This document shows positions 47,648 to 56,836 of a DNA stretch of 64,000 nt, piece after piece. This stretch comes from Actinomadura soli (GTDB lineage Bacteria > Actinomycetota > Actinomycetes > Streptosporangiales > Streptosporangiaceae). How positions within the stretch are numbered: the stretch's first letter is position 1; every line of letters starts with the position of its first letter. A program made the translations under genes and the position numbers. Under the pieces are notes generated by a model that made no database searches, was not told where the DNA came from, and saw only the letters and a program-made list of their open reading frames with translations. Location: positions 1 through 64,000 of the forward strand of contig NZ_VCKW01000005.1 in assembly GCF_005889715.1 (NCBI RefSeq), read 5' to 3'.

Positions 47648-49462
47648 ATGAGCGGGTGGCGGGTGCCGGGATACACGGAGCTGCGGGTGCTCGGCGAGGG
47701 CGGGCAGGGTCGCGTCGTGCTCGCGCGGCACGACGCGACCGGCCTCCCGGCGGCGATCAAGTACCTCGCGGAGTCCCTCGCCGGGGACGAGGGGTTCCGC
47801 ACGCGGTTCCGCGCCGAGGCCGGGCTGCTGCGGCGGCTGCGCAACCCGTTCGTCACCCAGCTGTTCGGGCTGGTCGAGGCGCCGGACGGTGCCGCCATCG
47901 TCATGGAGGCGGTGGACGGCGCGTCCCTCAAGGCGGTGCTCGCCGAGCGGGGGCCGCTGGAGCCCGAGGCCGCGCTGACCGTGCTGAAGGGCTCGCTGCT
48001 GGGGCTGGCGGCGGCGCATGACGTCGGGATCGTCCACCGCGACTACAAGCCCGCGAACGTCATCGTGCGCGGCGACGGGCTGAGCAAGCTCATCGACTTC
48101 GGCATCGCCGTGGACGCGGGCGAGTCCGGACGGTCGGGCACCCCCGTCTACATGGCGCCGGAACAGTGGCGGGACGAGCCCGCCTCCCCCGCCACCGACG
48201 TGTACGCGGCGGCGTGCGTGTTCTTCGAGTGCGTGACGGGCCGCCGGCCGTACACGGCCGAGGACCGGGCGGGGCTGATGGGCCGCCACCTGACGGCGCC
48301 GATCCCGGTCGAGGACGTCCCCGAGCCGCTCCGCCCGCTGATCGAGCGCGGCCTGGCGAAGAACCCGTGGGACCGTCCGCTCGGCGCCACCGGGTTCGTC
48401 GCGGAGCTGGAGTCGGTCGCGTCGGGCGCGTACGGGGCGCGCTGGGAGGCGCGGGGCGTCCGCACGCTCGCGGGGGCGGCGGCCGCGCTGTCCATGCTGT
48501 TCCCGCTCACCGCGCTCGGCATCGCGTCCGGCGGCGCGGCCTCGGGCGCGGCGGGCACCGCGGGCGCCGCCGGAGCCGGGGCCGGGGCCGCCGGAGCGGG
48601 CGCGGGAGGTGCGGGCGCGGGAGGCGCCGGGACGGCGGGCGCGGCGACGGGCAAGGGCGTGCTCGGCGCGCTCGGCGCCAAGGGGACGGCCGCCGTCGCG
48701 GGCGGGGCCGCCGCCGTCGCCGCGGGCGGCGGCGCGGCGGTCTACGTCGCGACCGCGGACGAGGCGCCGAAGCCGATCGTGGCGCGGCTCGCCGCGCTCA
48801 GCGAGCCCCGCCAGGACATGGGCGGCGGGATGACGTTCCAGGCGCAGGGGCAGATCGTCCGGGTCACGGGCGGCGCCGCCGCGCTCAACCAGAAGATCAA
48901 CCAGGCGCTGCGGGCGCCGCTCGAACAGCGCTGGACCAAGACCAGGAACGGCCTGAAGGACGTCGGCAGCGGCGCCTACACCGACGTGGTGAGGCCGCAG
49001 ATCCTGATGCGCACCGACCGGCTGCTGTCGGTCTGGTACACCGTCACGCTGCAGGGCCAGCGCGGGTCGGGCTGGGACACCCCGTCCGCGGCGGTCGTCG
49101 ACCTGCGGACCGGCACGCTCTACCGGCCGCCCGGCCTGTTCCGCGCCGCGACCCCGCAGGCGCTCGCGCCGTTCGACGCGAGGATCGAGGCGCACATGCC
49201 CGGCGGCGACTACTGCGGCGGCGGCGCGGACCAGGCCGCTCCGCCGGGCGGGGCCGACACCCCGTCCAAGTTCGTGAACACCGGCGACGTCGCGATGGCG
49301 CTCACCCCGAAGGGCGTCCGGGTCGCGTTCCACGCCGGGCTGCTGGGCTACACCATGGCGTGCGGGACGCAGGACACGGTCGTCCCGTACGGCGAGGTCG
49401 ACGGACTGCTGAAACCCGCGCTGCTGGCGGCCGTCCGCGTGCCGTCGCCGAAACGTTCCTAG
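47648..49462 (+). CDS. Ser/Thr protein kinase with RsiV/DUF3298-like C-terminal domain
   Basis: The 604-residue protein has an N-terminal kinase domain (about 5-260): [11 protein letters not shown] glycine loop, AAIKYL lysine, [13 protein letters not shown] catalytic loop, LIDFGIA and [10 protein letters not shown] hydrophobic stretch near 275-297 and a Gly/Ala-rich segment (GAAGAGAGAAGAGAGG) follow. From about 380 a beta-rich domain resembles the RsiV/DUF3298 sensory fold: [29 protein letters not shown], and near the end [20 protein letters not shown] and [13 protein letters not shown]. It is predicted as kinase inside and sensor outside. HRDY replaces HRDL, with catalytic Asp kept. Confidence 0.88.
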
Positions 49463-49511: not shown

Positions 49512-50462
<951 letters not shown>

Positions 50463-50485: not shown

Positions 50486-51265
50486 TCAGACGAACTTCTT
50501 CGACGCGAGGAACTCGGCGATCTTCGCGCCGCCGTCGCCCTCGTCGGTGACGATCTGACCCTTCGCGCGCGGCGGCGCCTCGGCGAAGTCGACCACCTCG
50601 GTGGCCGCGTTCGCCAGGCCGACCCGGCCTGCGTCGATGCCGGCGTCGGCCAGGCCGAGCGTCTCCACCGGCTTCTTCTTGGCCGCCATGATCCCCTTGA
50701 ACGACGGGTAGCGCGGCTCGTTGATCTTCTCGACGACGCTGACGACCGCGGGCAGGGTGGCCTCGACCCGGTCGAAGCCGTAGTCGGTCTGCCGCTGCAC
50801 CTTGATGGACGTCCCGTCGATCTCGACCTTGTTCGCGAGCGACAGCTGCGGGACGCCGAGCCGCTCGGCGAGCATCGCGGCGAGCAGCCCGGTCCGCGCG
50901 TCGGTGGACTCCGACCCGAGGATCACCAGGTCGAACCCGGTGCGGCCGAGCGCCTGCTCGATCGCGTAGGACGTCTGCAGCGCGTCGGAGCCGGCGAGGC
51001 CGTCGTCGAGCAGGTGCACGGCCTTGTCGGCGCCCATCGCCAGGGACTTGCGGATGGACTCCGACGCCTTGTCGGGGCCCATGGACAGAACGGTCACCTC
51101 GCCGCCCTGGGCCTCCTTGACGCGCAGCGCCTCCTCGATCGCGTACTCGTCGAGTTCGTTGATCACGCCGTCCGCCGCGGCGCGGTCCAGCGTGCTGTCA
51201 TCGGACTTCAGCTTGCGCGGGCTCTCCGTATCGGGAACCTGCTTCACCAGGACGACGATGTTCAT
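50486..51265 (-). CDS. etfB: Electron transfer flavoprotein beta subunit
   Basis: The 259-residue protein starts at MNIVVLVKQVPDTE. It has the ETF adenine nucleotide alpha-hydrolase-like fold with NELDEYAIEEALRVKE, VLSMGPDKASESIRKSLAMGADKA, FDLVILGSESTDARTGLLAAMLAE and VEATLPAVVSVVEKINEPRYPSFKGIMAAKKKP, the last being the ETF-beta signature. It is first in etfB-etfA. Confidence 0.96.
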   Translation of the reverse strand: MNIVVLVKQVPDTESPRKLKSDDSTLDRAAADGVINELDEYAIEEALRVKEAQGGEVTVLSMGPDKASESIRKSLAMGADKAVHLLDDGLAGSDALQTSYAIEQALGRTGFDLVILGSESTDARTGLLAAMLAERLGVPQLSLANKVEIDGTSIKVQRQTDYGFDRVEATLPAVVSVVEKINEPRYPSFKGIMAAKKKPVETLGLADAGIDAGRVGLANAATEVVDFAEAPPRAKGQIVTDEGDGGAKIAEFLASKKFV

Positions 51266-51424
51266 GGCCGGTGGCCGACCTCCCTGCACTCAGTAGGCCG
51301 CTGAACTCAGCGGCGGACTCGATGTCACAGCCTGCCAAACACCCGAACGAGCTTCGGACCCGGGTCCCGGATTCGGCCATGCGCCCCTAATGTTACTCGT
51401 GGGTAGCCCGTGGGCACAATTCAC

Positions 51425-52747
51425 TCAGAAGCGGTTGACGGCGGTCTGCAGCCGGTCCATCGTCCCCTCCAGCGAGCTCTGCAGCCCGTACATCGGCGAG
51501 AAGCTGGGCGTCAGCGTCAGCGCGCCGAACACCGCCGCCAGCGCCAGCACGCCGAGCACGATCCCGGCGGCCGCGATGCGCCTCGGCCGCCGCGCGACGG
51601 ACAGGAACAGCCGCTCCAGCTGGCGCCGGGGGCCGCTGACGCCCGGCGCCGTCCACAGCACCGCCGCTCCCGTCCCGGCCCCGAACGCGCAGGCGCTGAG
51701 CGAGTCGATCTCCCCGCCGACCGCCGACACCGCGACGAGGCCGAGCGGCACGGCGACCGTGAACGCCGCCGCGTACGGGACGGTCAGCAGCGTCCGCCCG
51801 AGGGCCCGCGCCCAGCCGCGCGCCGTCGTCCCCGCGACCCGCAGCAGCGTCACCGCGCCCAGCGACAGGACGAGCCCCGCGATCGGCGCCATGATCACGA
51901 TGCCGACCGCGATCACCACGACCATGGCCGCGAGCAGCCGCGCCCATCCCCGCGCCACGGCCAGCTCGTGCGCGTCCGCCGCCGTCGCGGAGGCGGCCGG
52001 GACCGCCCGCGATGCCACCGGTGATGCGGGCGCGGGTGCGGGCGGCGGCGTGGAGGCCGGTGCCGGTGGTTCGGGACGCCTCGGTGCGGGCGCCGTGGGC
52101 ATGGTCAGCCGGGACGTCGCCGCCGCCAGCTCGGCCGCCGACGGACGCGCGCCCGGGTCGGGGTCGGCTGCCGCGATGACCAGCGGGCGCAGGCCGGGGG
52201 GCAGGTCGTCGGCGGGCGCCTCCGGGGTTCCGGTGGCCGCGAACGTCACGGTCGCGGCCCAAGCCCGGACGTCTCCTCCGGCGCTCGTGCTCTCCGTCAG
52301 CGCGAAGTCGACGACGACCGGTGCGCCGTCCACGACGAGGACGGTCTCGGGGCCGAGGTCGCCGTGCGCGAGACCGGTCCGGTGGATGGCGGCGAGCGCC
52401 TTGGCCAGCCCGAACGCCATGCGGTGCAGCGCGTCGCCGGACATCGGGCCCTGCTCGGCGACCGTCTCCGCCAGCGGCCGTCCGGGGACGAACCGGGACA
52501 CCACGTACGGCTGGGACGCGGTGGGATCGCCGTCCAGGACGTCCACGACGTAGGGGCTGAGCACCTCGCGCATACGGGTGATGTCGGGTGCGGCGCCCGG
52601 CGGGAGCAGCCTGATCGCCACGTCCCGGCCGTCGGCCCCCGCCGCGCGGTGGGCGGCGCCGCCGGCGCCCGTTCCGGCGCCGCCGCCCAGCCGGGACAGC
52701 AGCCGGTACGGACCGATGTGCTCCTGGTGGCCGATCTCGCCGCTCAT
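51425..52747 (-). CDS. Predicted pseudokinase with four-helix membrane domain
   Basis: The 440-residue protein has a Ser/Thr-kinase-like fold (about 12-220) in which key residues are changed. The glycine loop is GGGAGTGAGG; the VAIK lysine is R46 (DVAIRLL). The HRD motif is HGD (128-130, LAHGDLGPET), so Asp130 remains but the following Lys and Asn do not. DFG is DFA (147-149). After a Pro/Ala linker, four hydrophobic segments lie between residues 285 and 420. It has the same layout as the neighbouring kinase at 52843-54801 and is probably its paralogue. It likely serves as a scaffold or allosteric partner. Confidence 0.82.
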   Translation of the reverse strand: MSGEIGHQEHIGPYRLLSRLGGGAGTGAGGAAHRAAGADGRDVAIRLLPPGAAPDITRMREVLSPYVVDVLDGDPTASQPYVVSRFVPGRPLAETVAEQGPMSGDALHRMAFGLAKALAAIHRTGLAHGDLGPETVLVVDGAPVVVDFALTESTSAGGDVRAWAATVTFAATGTPEAPADDLPPGLRPLVIAAADPDPGARPSAAELAAATSRLTMPTAPAPRRPEPPAPASTPPPAPAPASPVASRAVPAASATAADAHELAVARGWARLLAAMVVVIAVGIVIMAPIAGLVLSLGAVTLLRVAGTTARGWARALGRTLLTVPYAAAFTVAVPLGLVAVSAVGGEIDSLSACAFGAGTGAAVLWTAPGVSGPRRQLERLFLSVARRPRRIAAAGIVLGVLALAAVFGALTLTPSFSPMYGLQSSLEGTMDRLQTAVNRF

Positions 52748-52842
52748 ATGGGACGCCACCCTACCGACCGGAGGCGTCCCGCCAAGACGCGTTCGATCTC
52801 CCGTGGGGGGACGGGTCCCCCCACACCCACGGAACAGCCTTG

Positions 52843-54801
52843 TCACATCCCGGGGAGGCCATACACGAGGTCGCGGACGTCGGCGCGCAGGCCCTCCAGG
52901 TCTTGGCCCATGCCGTCCAGCGGGGTGGTGTCGGGCGGCTGCTCCTGGGACAGGACGACCAGCACCACCGCGAAGATCCCGATGATCAGCGCACCGGCCA
53001 GGGCGGCCTCGGTGCGCGGGAACACCGCGCCCCAGACCCGGGCCAGCTGGCGCCGGGGCGCGCCGCTGCCCGGCGCGAGGCAGAGCAGCCCGATCACCGC
53101 CATGGCGGAGTACGCGATGGCGTTCGAGGCGGTCATGTCGGACTTGGCGAAGATCAGCACGCCGAGGATGATCAGCCCGGCGAAAAGGCTGAGGGACGTC
53201 CACAGCACCGTGGACATCAGCGCGCCGGGCAGGTGCAGCGGCGTCCTGAACGCCGCGGCGACCGCGTCGCCGGAGCGCGGCCCGCGCCGCGTCTGCCGTC
53301 CCTCCATGCCCTTGGCGGCCTTGTCGGCCATCCGCAGGACGAGCGCGCCCGCGACGGTGGCGCCGACGGCGAGCAGCGGCGCGATGTCGGCGAAGCCGAG
53401 CAGCGCCACCAGGACGAGGAAGCTGAGGAACCGGTACCAGCCGTAGGGTTTGCGGCGGTCGCGCTCGGCGCGGGCCCGCTCGTCGACACGGCGCTGCGCG
53501 TCCTGCGTCTGCGGGTCGTGCGGGCCGGGGCGGCGCTGCAGCGCACCCGGCGGCGGCTGGTTCGGCGGCGGGTACTGCGGCGGGTATCCGCCCTGGTCGT
53601 ACGGGCCGGGCGGGGCGTAGCCGCGCTGCTGGAACTGCTCGCCCGCCTTGTAGGGCGCGGGCCCCGGCGGCGGGACGGGCGGCGGCGCGGCGGGCGGCAG
53701 CTGCCCGACGAAGTCCCTCGGCTGCGCCGGGGCGGGAGCGGGCGTCGGTGGGGGCCCGGGGACCGGGATCGCGGTCGAGCCGGGCGTGGTCGGACGCGCC
53801 GGCCGCACCTCGTGCGGCGGCGGAGCCGACACCGGCATGGAGAACTGCCGGGAGTGGTCGGCCGCGGTCTCCTCCGCCGGCTGCGACGCGCTCGGCGTCG
53901 GCTGCGACGTGCCGGGCCCTTGCGACGTGCCGGGCCCCTGCGACGCGCTCGGCGACGGGTAGTGCCGGTCGACGCGGGTCTGGTCGGTGATGGTGGCTTC
54001 GAGGTGGATCCGCCGGGTGAGCTGCACCAGGTTGACCGCGGTGGGACGTTCGGCGGGGTGCCGCGCCATGGCCGAGCGGAGCACGGGCAGCATCGCGTCC
54101 GGCACGCCGTCGAGGTCGGGCGTGCCCTGCATGATCTTGTAGAAGATCGACTCGAAGGTGCCCGAGCCGAAGGGCGGGCGGCCGGTCGCGGCGTAGGCGA
54201 CCGTCCCGGCCCAGGCGTGCACGTCCGACGGCGGGCCCGCGTCCTCACCCTCGATGATCTCCGGCGCCAGGTAGCCGGGCGTGCCGATGACCATCCCGGT
54301 CGCGGTCAGCCGGGTCGCGTCGGCGCCCTGCGCGATCCCGAAGTCGATCACGACGGGCTCGCTGTCCACGAGCATCACGTTGCCGGGCTTCATGTCCCGG
54401 TGGACGATCCCGGCGCCGTGGATCGCCGACAGCGCCGCCCCCAGCCCCACGGCGAGCCGCTGCAGCGCGGGCCCGTAGATCGGCCCGGACTCCTCGACGA
54501 TCTCTTCGAGCGTCCGCCCAGGCACGTACTGGGTGACGATGTAGGGCTGGTCGGCGGTCACGTCGGCGTCGAGGATCTCCGCGACGTGGGGGCTGTGCAC
54601 CCGGCGCATCGAGTCGACCTCGCGGGCGAGCCGGCGACGCGCCGTGGCGTCCCCCGCGACCGCGGGCCGCAGCACCTTGATGGCCACATTCCGCCCCTCG
54701 GGGTCGGCGCCGAGGTAGACGACGCCCATCCCCCCTTCCCCGAGGGTCTGGAGAACGCTGTAGTGGCCGATTCGGTCCCCGGACGTGACTGCTCCCTTCA
54801 T
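52843..54801 (-). CDS. Membrane Ser/Thr protein kinase
   Basis: The 652-residue protein has an intact kinase domain at 10-270: LGEGGMGVVYLG, VAIKVLRP, GIVHRDMKPGNVMLV, VIDFGIAQG and GTPGYLAPEII, with TGMVIGTP as activation loop. A long Pro/Gln/Ser-rich linker follows, with a repeated SQGPGT unit, then four hydrophobic segments between about 455 and 640. The start MKGAVTSGDRIGHY is chosen over a longer frame. It is the middle gene of three tandem kinase genes, with 95 bases to the pseudokinase start downstream. Confidence 0.92.
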   Translation of the reverse strand: MKGAVTSGDRIGHYSVLQTLGEGGMGVVYLGADPEGRNVAIKVLRPAVAGDATARRRLAREVDSMRRVHSPHVAEILDADVTADQPYIVTQYVPGRTLEEIVEESGPIYGPALQRLAVGLGAALSAIHGAGIVHRDMKPGNVMLVDSEPVVIDFGIAQGADATRLTATGMVIGTPGYLAPEIIEGEDAGPPSDVHAWAGTVAYAATGRPPFGSGTFESIFYKIMQGTPDLDGVPDAMLPVLRSAMARHPAERPTAVNLVQLTRRIHLEATITDQTRVDRHYPSPSASQGPGTSQGPGTSQPTPSASQPAEETAADHSRQFSMPVSAPPPHEVRPARPTTPGSTAIPVPGPPPTPAPAPAQPRDFVGQLPPAAPPPVPPPGPAPYKAGEQFQQRGYAPPGPYDQGGYPPQYPPPNQPPPGALQRRPGPHDPQTQDAQRRVDERARAERDRRKPYGWYRFLSFLVLVALLGFADIAPLLAVGATVAGALVLRMADKAAKGMEGRQTRRGPRSGDAVAAAFRTPLHLPGALMSTVLWTSLSLFAGLIILGVLIFAKSDMTASNAIAYSAMAVIGLLCLAPGSGAPRRQLARVWGAVFPRTEAALAGALIIGIFAVVLVVLSQEQPPDTTPLDGMGQDLEGLRADVRDLVYGLPGM

Positions 54802-54842
54802 CGTTTCCGAAACCCTACCCCCGTCGATCGTGCCCGAAGTTC

Positions 54843-55718
54843 TCATCCGCTGGTGGCCGCGGACACGCCGTGACGCCTGTTACCGGCGGTAGGACGCCCT
54901 CCCGCCGGGCTTTGGGCCGGCCGGGCGAGGCCGTCGCGCTCCGCGAGCGCGCCCGCGAGCCAGCGCGCCGACGGGCGCTTGGACGGGTCGCGCTGGAACG
55001 CCATCCGCAGCAGCCCGGCCAGCTCGTCCGGCACGCCGTCGAGGTCGGCCTGGCCGCGCAGGATCCGGAAGCAGACGCCGTGTAGCGAGCCGCGCCCGAA
55101 CGGCGGGCGCCCCGTCGCCGCGCACGCGACCGTCGCCGCCCACGAGAACACGTCGGACGCGGTGGTGGCGCGCTCCCCCTCGATGAGCTCCGGCGCCAGG
55201 TAGGCGGGCGTCCCCACGACCATCCCGCGCCTGGTGATCTGCTCGGCGCCCGACTCGTGCGCGATGCCGAAGTCGATCAGCGTCGGCCGGTCGCCCATCA
55301 CGATCACGTTGCCGGGCGCCACGTCCCGGTGCAGGACGCCCGCGTCGTGGACGTCCCCGAGCGCGAGCGCCAGCCGCCGCGCGAACCGGGCGAGCCGGTC
55401 GCGGCGCAGCGGCCCGTACGCGGAGATCAGGTCGTTCAGCGGGCAGCCGGGCACGTACTGCATGACCACGTACGGCCGCTCCGCCGTGATCTCCCCGTCC
55501 AGCAGCCGCGCGACGTACTCGCTGCGCACCCGCGCCTGCGCGGACATCTCGCGGGCCAGCCGGCTGATCGCCTCCGGCTCCCCCGCCACCTCCGGGCTCA
55601 GCTCCTTCACCGCGACCTCGCGGCCGCGGGGGTCCATGGCGAGGTGGACCACCGCCGTACTCCCCCGGCCGATCTCGTCCAGCAACCGATAGCCGCCCAG
55701 CCGTCGATGCTTCCCCAT
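54843..55718 (-). CDS. Soluble Ser/Thr protein kinase
   Basis: The 291-residue protein consists of the kinase domain only. It shows IGRGSTAVVHLA, VAVKELSP, VLHRDVAPGNVIVM, LIDFGIAHE and GTPAYLAPELIEGE, with a short basic tail. HRDVAPGN replaces HRDLKPEN, so the usual Lys is Ala, but Asp and Asn remain. No membrane helix is present. It lies 41 bases upstream of the membrane kinase gene on the same strand and is probably in its operon. The start could be extended a few codons upstream (VKGGMGKHRR). Confidence 0.9.
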   Translation of the reverse strand: MGKHRRLGGYRLLDEIGRGSTAVVHLAMDPRGREVAVKELSPEVAGEPEAISRLAREMSAQARVRSEYVARLLDGEITAERPYVVMQYVPGCPLNDLISAYGPLRRDRLARFARRLALALGDVHDAGVLHRDVAPGNVIVMGDRPTLIDFGIAHESGAEQITRRGMVVGTPAYLAPELIEGERATTASDVFSWAATVACAATGRPPFGRGSLHGVCFRILRGQADLDGVPDELAGLLRMAFQRDPSKRPSARWLAGALAERDGLARPAQSPAGGRPTAGNRRHGVSAATSG

Positions 55719-55795: not shown

Positions 55796-56746
55796 TCAGG
55801 AGCGGCGGGCGGCCTGGCGGGCGCGGCGCTCCTCGCGGCGGGTCTCGAACTTGGTCGCCGCCGCGTCGAGCTGCTCCAGGAACTCGCCCAGTTCCTCGCG
55901 GGCCTTCTCGCCCTCGCCGGTCAGGTCGGTGCGGTCGAAGATGTTCCACTTGCGCAGCACCGGGATGAGGACGTCGTCGTGGTGCAGGCGCAGGTCGTAG
56001 ATGCCCGCGTTGGCGATCAGGACCGACTTGCGCAGGAATCCGTCGATGCTGTGGCCGGGCATCTGGAACCCCTTGACGACGTCGGTGATCGCCCGCATCG
56101 TCTCGTTCGGCGCCGCCTCCAGCGCGGCGTCCATCAGGTTCCGGTAGAAGATCATGTGGAGGTTCTCGTCCGCGGCGACGCGGGTCAGCATCTGCTCGCA
56201 CAGCGGGTCGCCGGACGCCCGGCCCGTGTTGCGGTGCGAGACGCGGGTGGCGAGCTCCTGGAACGACACGTACGCCGCGCCGTGCAGGAACGAGTCGCCG
56301 TGGTCGGCGTCGTAGCCGGCCTCCATGTGGTGCATGCGGGCGCGTTCCAGGGCGACCGGGTCGACCGCGCGGGTGGCGGTCAGGTAGTCGCGGATGACGA
56401 TGCCGTGCCGGTTCTCCTCGGCCGTCCACCGGTTGACCCACGTGCCCCAGGCGCCGTCGCGGCCGAACGCGGTGGAGATGGCGTTGTGGTAGCCGGGCAG
56501 GTTGTCCTCGGTGAGCAGGTTGACGATGAGCGACTCGCGCGCCTCGGCGCTCAGCTTCGACTGTTCGAGCGACCACGGCTCGCCGCCCAGGGGGCCGTCG
56601 AAGTCGCGGCCCTCACCCCACGGAACGTACTGGTGGGGGAACCATTCCTTGGCCATCGACAGGTGCCGGTTCAGTTCCCTCTCGGCGACCGGCTCGAGGT
56701 CGACCATGAGGCTGAGCTGGAACTTCTCTTCGGGGGTCACGGACAT
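55796..56746 (-). CDS. Acyl-ACP desaturase (DesA/DesA2 family)
   Basis: The 316-residue ferritin-like di-iron protein starts at MSVTPEEKFQLSLMVDL. Iron ligands are expected in TAEENRHGIVIRDYL (ENRHG, about 138-152) and VAADENLHMIFYRN (DENLH, about 213-226), with E of SLIVNLLTEDNLP as an earlier ligand. Family proteins introduce a double bond into acyl-ACP chains; mycobacterial DesA2 is the close type. It lies 77 bases upstream of the soluble kinase start. Its promoter region carries the inverted repeat at 56837-56856. Confidence 0.92.
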   Translation of the reverse strand: MSVTPEEKFQLSLMVDLEPVAERELNRHLSMAKEWFPHQYVPWGEGRDFDGPLGGEPWSLEQSKLSAEARESLIVNLLTEDNLPGYHNAISTAFGRDGAWGTWVNRWTAEENRHGIVIRDYLTATRAVDPVALERARMHHMEAGYDADHGDSFLHGAAYVSFQELATRVSHRNTGRASGDPLCEQMLTRVAADENLHMIFYRNLMDAALEAAPNETMRAITDVVKGFQMPGHSIDGFLRKSVLIANAGIYDLRLHHDDVLIPVLRKWNIFDRTDLTGEGEKAREELGEFLEQLDAAATKFETRREERRARQAARRS

Positions 56747-56836
56747 GCGGTTCCTTCGCTGGACGAGGGCGGTCTGCCGGACGGGCACCGCCGGGCTCGC
56801 GGCGCCGAAAGGGCTCCTAGCAGGCCGGACGTGCAT

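Follow-up and report, generated by a model that had tools for sequence, protein, structure and literature searches.

The window (the whole stretch of 64,000 nucleotides analysed here) harbors three consecutive protein kinase homologues, K1, K2 and K3, all on the minus strand (Table 1), and the last of them appears by its sequence to be a pseudokinase. We propose that K3 is a catalytically dead, membrane-anchored partner of K2, a reading to which we give about even chances. Its multi-helix membrane tail, homologous to the tail of K2, would hold K3 beside K2, and the shrunken cytosolic pseudokinase domain would serve as an allosteric or scaffold subunit controlling K2 output. The two proteins would then be in physical contact, control would run from the presumably inactive K3 towards K2, and the output might be linked to etfBA or to lipid metabolism. 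Because K2 and K3 have a common anchor, lie together wherever this could be scored, and only K3 has lost kinase features, a two-part membrane complex seems to us the best explanation of the locus. The preliminary description of this DNA had listed three kinase homologues in a row with R46, HGD and DFA in the third, and both genes and residues are as described.

Table 1. Genes and features of the kinase locus, in coordinates of the window
Feature	Position	Strand	Remark
FA_desaturase_2 family protein	55796-56836	minus	upstream of K1 (of K2 where K1 is missing)
K1 kinase, soluble, 291 aa	54843-55718	minus	stop overlaps K2 start
K2 membrane Ser/Thr kinase, 667 aa	52843-54846	minus	alternative start 54801
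K2 membrane tail, residues 465-667	52846-53454	minus	
K3 membrane pseudokinase (by sequence), 440 aa	51425-52747	minus	ATG start 52747
K3 Arg46 codon AGG, beta-3 lysine position	52610-52612	minus	
K3 H128-G129-D130, HRD position	52358-52366	minus	
K3 D147-F148-A149, DFG position	52301-52309	minus	
K3 membrane tail, residues 255-440	51428-51985	minus	homologous to K2 tail
EtfB	50486-51289	minus	downstream of K3
EtfA	49512-50462	minus	

The Pkinase profile is matched almost end to end by K1 (E 3e-38) and K2 (E 7e-40). All K2 motifs are intact in the window (VAIK, HRDMKPGN, DFG and APE), and the same holds for 28/28 distinct whole K2-type kinase parts, a few of them from genera without K3; another 16 K2-type open reading frames, all cut by a stretch edge, stand outside this count. 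The catalytic loop of K1 reads HRDVAPGN and is without the lysine that follows HRDx. K1 is an otherwise complete kinase and such a change of HRDxK is unusual; the window has Ala at this position, and of 34 distinct K1-type stretches 30 have Ala, Ser or Thr and four have Lys (the example shown is from g62).

The start assigned to K3 is backed by an MSGE-like N-terminus common to most orthologues. Against Pkinase (PF00069), K3 aligns at profile positions 49-165 only (E 9e-9), and its score of 35.5 bits lies above the curated cut-off of 31.7, which places it within the protein kinase fold. The damage goes well beyond three point changes, as the glycine loop, most of helix C, the activation segment, APE and helix G are missing too. 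An AlphaFold2 model built from 19 sequences has a confidence of 84 to 96 per ten-residue block over residues 31-210, with the exception of 74 at 151-160. Strands 1-5 are accompanied by a one-turn helix C (56-60) and by helices D and E; helix F lies close behind the DFG position and is followed by helices H and I, helix G being absent. The helix names are our own assignment. The best solved neighbours of the predicted fold are kinases of the active type. Foldseek gives PknB, and VIA-align 2 has PknI (Z 21.4, rmsd 2.6, 207 residues), PknB (Z 20.9, rmsd 2.6, 203 residues), PknA and tyrosine kinases among its best 50 matches, with Z close to 21. PknB, PknA and PknI, which are among the closest solved relatives of both K2 (by sequence) and the K3 fold, have an activation segment and helix G, whereas K3 is without both. 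Arginine at position 46 and the loss of the activation segment and APE set K3 apart from catalytic Ser/Thr kinases. A kinase fold with a missing catalytic motif, conserved across the family of proteins (54/54 of the genus), is the mark of a pseudokinase, and the earlier assignment of K3 to this class has been borne out by sequence, with the degeneracy spanning the genus.

We searched a profile of the K3 tail over 341 genomes of the bacterial family and found K3-type tails in 78 of them, including 62 genomes of g1, the genus of the window (best E at most 1.4e-47). This genus is presumably Actinomadura; a search for related loci gave 26 loci, 24 of them Actinomadura. Loci L001-L024 overlap in organisms with the genomes designated G, and the main counts are taken from the latter. 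The analysis covered 61 of the 62 g1 K3s (G318 was left out), and 54 of them, the window's included, have a readable kinase part; seven edge fragments and eight tail-only g62 proteins were set aside from the motif counts. All 54 readable kinase parts are degenerate. The beta-3 position is occupied by Arg in 53 and by Thr in one, the HRD arginine is replaced by Gly in 52, and APE is found in none. The DFG Asp is kept in 52, the third letter being Ala in 24 and Gly in 30, and only 5-8 residues stand where intact K3s have 29 (the activation segment). The position of the catalytic Asp is much more variable (D16, A17, E12, G3, R3, S3). The conserved marks of K3 are therefore R46 and HG and not HGD or DFA: of the two features whose conservation was proposed as a check, R46 is conserved (53/54) and DFA is not (24/54). 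HG is conserved as well (52/54), the Asp of HGD is not (16/54). The sole g1 K3 with Thr for Arg46 (G292, L162) also has Glu for the DFG Asp and sits on a long branch. One K3 is frameshifted (L024, apparently the same as G287).

A sequencing or assembly error behind the state of K3 is excluded, since the tails recur in 61 other g1 genomes and degenerate kinase parts in 53 of those. Three g1 genomes are without a K3 tail. Two of them (G288 and G004) are without etfB as well, so that absence of K3 there looks like an assembly gap. The third, G008, retains K1, K2 and etfBA without K3, and is likely the sole real loss of K3 among the 63 g1 genomes in which K3 or the etfB locus was found.

Could K3 still be an active kinase despite its motifs? 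The window copy keeps D130 and D147, and two orthologues in other genera carry all motifs. Against this, the activation segment, APE, helix G and most of helix C are gone, and the catalytic Asp is absent in 38/54 K3s of the genus; we consider continued activity almost certainly the wrong answer. Somewhat more can be said for K3 as a sensor that binds a nucleotide or another ligand via R46 and D147, or that has an activity other than phosphotransfer. Arg46 and Asp147 are the residues kept in 53/54 and 52/54, Arg stands at the same position in three g77 K3s that were apparently degraded separately, and ATP binding is predicted for an ActPs2 protein, which has Arg there too, according to a recent review (PMC12599244). 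The glycine loop, however, is lost and its region variable in length, and a change from Lys to Arg is an easy one-base step in a GC-rich genome, which makes a sensor of this kind very doubtful in our eyes.

To see how strongly K3 is held, we calculated dN/dS by the Nei-Gojobori method with our own script, using only pairs with dS of 0.15-1.2 and leaving out the L024 K3; as simple counts from a GC-rich genome the values are rough and perhaps too high. The median is 0.335 for the K3 kinase part (209 pairs), 0.298 for the K1 kinase (149 pairs) and 0.121 for the K2 kinase (137 pairs). Tails have 0.513 in K3 (188 pairs), which is above the K3 pseudokinase part, and 0.375 in K2 (150 pairs), and the linkers reach 0.731 in K3 and 0.625 in K2. 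As the value of the K3 kinase part resembles that of K1, this part is retained under purifying selection and does not evolve freely. Positions invariant in 19 aligned K3s include R46, S64-P65-Y66, H128-G129, L131 and P133, among others (the contig-edge fragments L015, L020 and L021 were left out of this first alignment). The idea that K3 is a decaying pseudogene is rejected for the genus on both the dN/dS of 0.335 and the invariant positions. The same two observations bear on a milder version of it, namely that K3 matters only for its membrane tail, the pseudokinase domain being a passive remnant in the course of being lost. Such a remnant would agree with the tail-only form of all eight K3s found in g62, with the loss of kinase features on more than one occasion and with the free drift of the catalytic Asp, but it is hard to reconcile with purifying selection at about the level of the K1 kinase part and with so many positions invariant across the 19 proteins; we hold it to be improbable.

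The relation of K3 to K2 is visible in both halves of the protein. The best paralogue of K3 in its own genome is K2, with 47% identity over residues 1-175, and a tree built from 64 kinase domains unites K1, K2 and K3 in a single group (SH-aLRT 84), each of them monophyletic (97 to 100). A further kinase with a long Gly/Ala-rich stretch, encoded at 47648-49462 on the plus strand and convergent to etfA, is present in many of the related loci, not in all, and falls outside this group. Profile comparison of the K2 and K3 tails gives a probability of 97.8 (E 1.2e-12), and six controls, five column-shuffled and one reversed, give at most 2.6; the two tails are homologous. The preliminary description was thus right about a tail common to K2 and K3 and wrong about its four helices: when the tail is modelled by itself (mean pLDDT 81), it forms five long membrane-type helices, an amphipathic one and another at the C-terminus. 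Hydropathy alone marks three helices in the K3 tail and four in that of K2. Loop charges, read by eye, would fit a tail that starts inside and ends outside. The K3 tail matched no Pfam family and the K2 tail only one at chance level (E 0.93); a PDB fold search with the K3 tail gave nothing better than E 1.7, which is not evidence for a new fold. The locus draws attention to a membrane domain for which these searches yielded neither a Pfam family nor a PDB fold match. The tail of L025 as a relative of the K2 tail is unsupported (E 0.21).

Gene order ties K3 to K2 and to etfBA. A K2-type gene lies upstream of K3 in 60 of 77 loci, and these are all the loci that could be scored. The other 17 comprise seven that start at a contig edge (G295, G301, G306, G307, G310, G313, G314), three in which the K3 frame is open to the start of the stretch (G010, G015, G319) and seven in which the stretch ends in or before the next gene (G001, G009, G284, G290, G305, G317, G326). 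EtfB is encoded downstream of K3 within the stretch covered at 74 of 77 loci, at some of them with another kinase gene between; it was not found in the stretches of G081, G120 and G303, and in the last (apparently L023) it follows farther on, behind another kinase gene. At nine loci (G003, G006, G011, G017, G139, G095, G127, G096, G347) K1 is missing and the desaturase gene directly precedes K2, hence the conserved core is K2 and K3, and K1 is not part of it. A three-kinase cassette as conserved unit, as the locus had first been described, is contradicted by these loci and by other kinase genes inserted elsewhere. In G018, from a different family, a K2-like kinase with a related tail directly precedes etfBA with no K3 between them (1.5 kb upstream were covered), an arrangement that fits K2 as the older gene. 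Our literature searches found nothing on the K1-K2-K3 cassette.

The decisive evidence comes from K3 orthologues in other genera. K3 is intact at this locus in G095 (g76) and G127 (g77), where it has VAIK or VAVK, HRDLKPxN, DFG, GTPGYLAPE and a tail of the K3 type. The occurrence of VAIK and DFG in orthologues had been named beforehand as a result that would speak against a pseudokinase; such orthologues do exist in these two genomes, they fit an ancestral intact state, and they do not revive the protein of the window, which is degenerate all the same. Six more orthologues outside g1 are partly degraded, four in g77 and two in g60. Of the g77 proteins, the one in G096 retains the Lys but its activation loop is rewritten; Arg and shortened loops are found in G345, G346 and G347. 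The two g60 proteins (G079 and G119) still have Lys, HRD and DFG and are without APE. Finally, the eight K3s found in g62 consist of the tail alone; their open frames encode 223-256 residues and begin in a similar way, with MT[WS]D.

The K3 kinase domains fall into one clade (99/97) that unites intact with degenerate members, among them that of the window. A topology test rejects a single clade for the tails of all degenerate and tail-only K3s, and with it the idea that degeneration happened just once (p-AU 8.3e-5); a single loss for g1, g60 and g62 is disfavoured (p 0.028). The test took in 21 of 60 g1 rows, and G287 was left out of the tail trees. One tail tree joins g60 with g62 (support 80), which gives three losses, and the other, on which the topology test was made, separates them and suggests four. 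The position of the intact g76 as sister to g1 is weakly supported in the latter tree (85/57) and has a support of 83 in the former. If the intact state is ancestral, K3 most likely lost its kinase features three or four times. Such repeated loss of kinase parts with the membrane anchor kept suggests that the dead copy is retained to help or control its working neighbour K2.

Six of the eight g62 loci have an extra kinase gene upstream of the tail-only gene. Its product clusters with the kinase encoded after K2 in g58 (100/99), and a grouping with K3 is rejected (p-AU 0.003), so it is not the lost kinase half of K3; the g58 gene, too, was dropped as a K3 orthologue and is another paralogue, common to g58 and g62. 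In the g62 members of this paralogue GPE stands instead of APE. In G152 and G081, both of g62, the tail-only gene comes after K2 with no kinase between.

Several observations count against a K2-K3 complex or limit it. Common tails and gene order fit mere co-localisation and are no proof of contact. Because G008 does without K3 and eight g62 genomes do without the K3 kinase domain, the pseudokinase domain is not always needed. It is conceivable that K3 is not a partner of K2 at all and acts as a membrane scaffold that recruits other proteins, perhaps after being phosphorylated by a neighbouring kinase. There is a precedent in the MviN pseudokinase domain, which is phosphorylated by PknB and recruits FhaA, according to the same review (PMC12599244); the deletions of helix G and the activation segment remodel the usual protein-binding faces, and K2 persists without K3 in G008. 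Nevertheless, a scaffold independent of K2 leaves aside the tail common with K2 and the K2-type gene upstream at each of the 60 scorable loci out of 77, and we regard it as rather unlikely.

If K3 is the partner of K2, the way in which the two would touch is a separate matter. At the position of PknB Leu33, K2 has Glu (by alignment) and K3 has Asp39 (read by eye), and PknB L33D and L33E mutants are present in the structure list of K3-fold neighbours. These mutations reportedly block PknB dimers. A back-to-back contact of the PknB type thus gets no support from the acidic residues and is not favoured for K2 and K3. HER3, which works with EGFR or HER2, is a membrane pseudokinase paralogue of active kinases. 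The likeness concerns only the proposed manner of working; only the kinase fold is common, and the membrane anchors are different.

Bacterial pseudokinases are largely unexplored experimentally, according to the abstract of a 2025 review, which describes the families ActPs1, ActPs2, ActPs3/MviN and others (PMC12599244). We compared K3 with these families by the descriptions given there. ActPs2 resembles K3 in being actinobacterial, in Arg at the beta-3 Lys (53/54 in K3) and in membrane regions C-terminal to the domain. Its own features are Asn for the HRD Asp, a mostly deleted DFG and insertions of 32 aa behind beta-3 and of about 250 aa within the activation loop, whereas K3 has a variable residue for the HRD Asp (Asn in 0/54), mostly keeps DF[AG] and has its activation segment deleted. 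ActPs1 is likewise actinobacterial with degenerate motifs, and helix G is missing in about 60 percent of ActPs1 as it is in K3. Many ActPs1 proteins, however, have a PQQ domain where K3 has a membrane tail, and ActPs1 is described by substitution of all three catalytic residues, whereas K3 has the DFG Asp in 52/54; in the bacterial kinase tree the ActPs1 family sits beside Act1. ActPs3/MviN is a bacterial pseudokinase domain linked to the membrane, and a role as regulator or scaffold has been proposed for it, which brings it near to K3 (all PMC12599244). It is characterised there by fusion to the MviN membrane protein and a VALT motif; K3, in contrast, has VAIR and no Pfam MviN match, and stands beside a paralogous active kinase with the same tail. 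MviN is absent among the best 50 structural matches to the K3 fold, which excludes nothing. Going by these descriptions, K3, a pseudokinase by its sequence, would be filed in none of ActPs1, ActPs2 and ActPs3/MviN.

More tentatively, and with less than even confidence, we suggest a broader view, in which one orthologous membrane kinase turned into a dead partner three or four times, with full loss of the kinase domain in one genus, whereas its active twin was retained together with an undescribed membrane domain of five helices. On this view the conserved working part would be the membrane domain, a module for assembling kinases into hetero-oligomers, and the pseudokinase would be a trimmed regulatory arm. 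The K3 locus presents one orthologue in a natural gradation, from the intact form through partly degraded and dead ones to the bare tail, next to an intact paralogue, so that the reasons for keeping a dead kinase can be tested by comparison. If the view is true, intact, half-degraded, dead and domain-less orthologues at one locus would provide a direct test of the role of a kinase after its catalysis is gone.

Additional kinase genes occur around this locus. Rows of two to four of them lie upstream of etfBA in L171-L174 (g58, g16, g42), L084 and L122-L127 (g62). An extra gene, K4, stands between K2 and K3 in L014 (3605-5947) and also in L007, L008, L010, L019 and L065; in L014 its product has two DivIVA-type stretches (TIGR03544, above the cut-off) behind two complete kinase domains, and this kinase might act in polar growth or division. 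The kinase between K3 and EtfB in L023 (6567-9101) is fused to DnaJ C-terminal domains (PF01556, two stretches, E 4e-33) and has apparent membrane helices.
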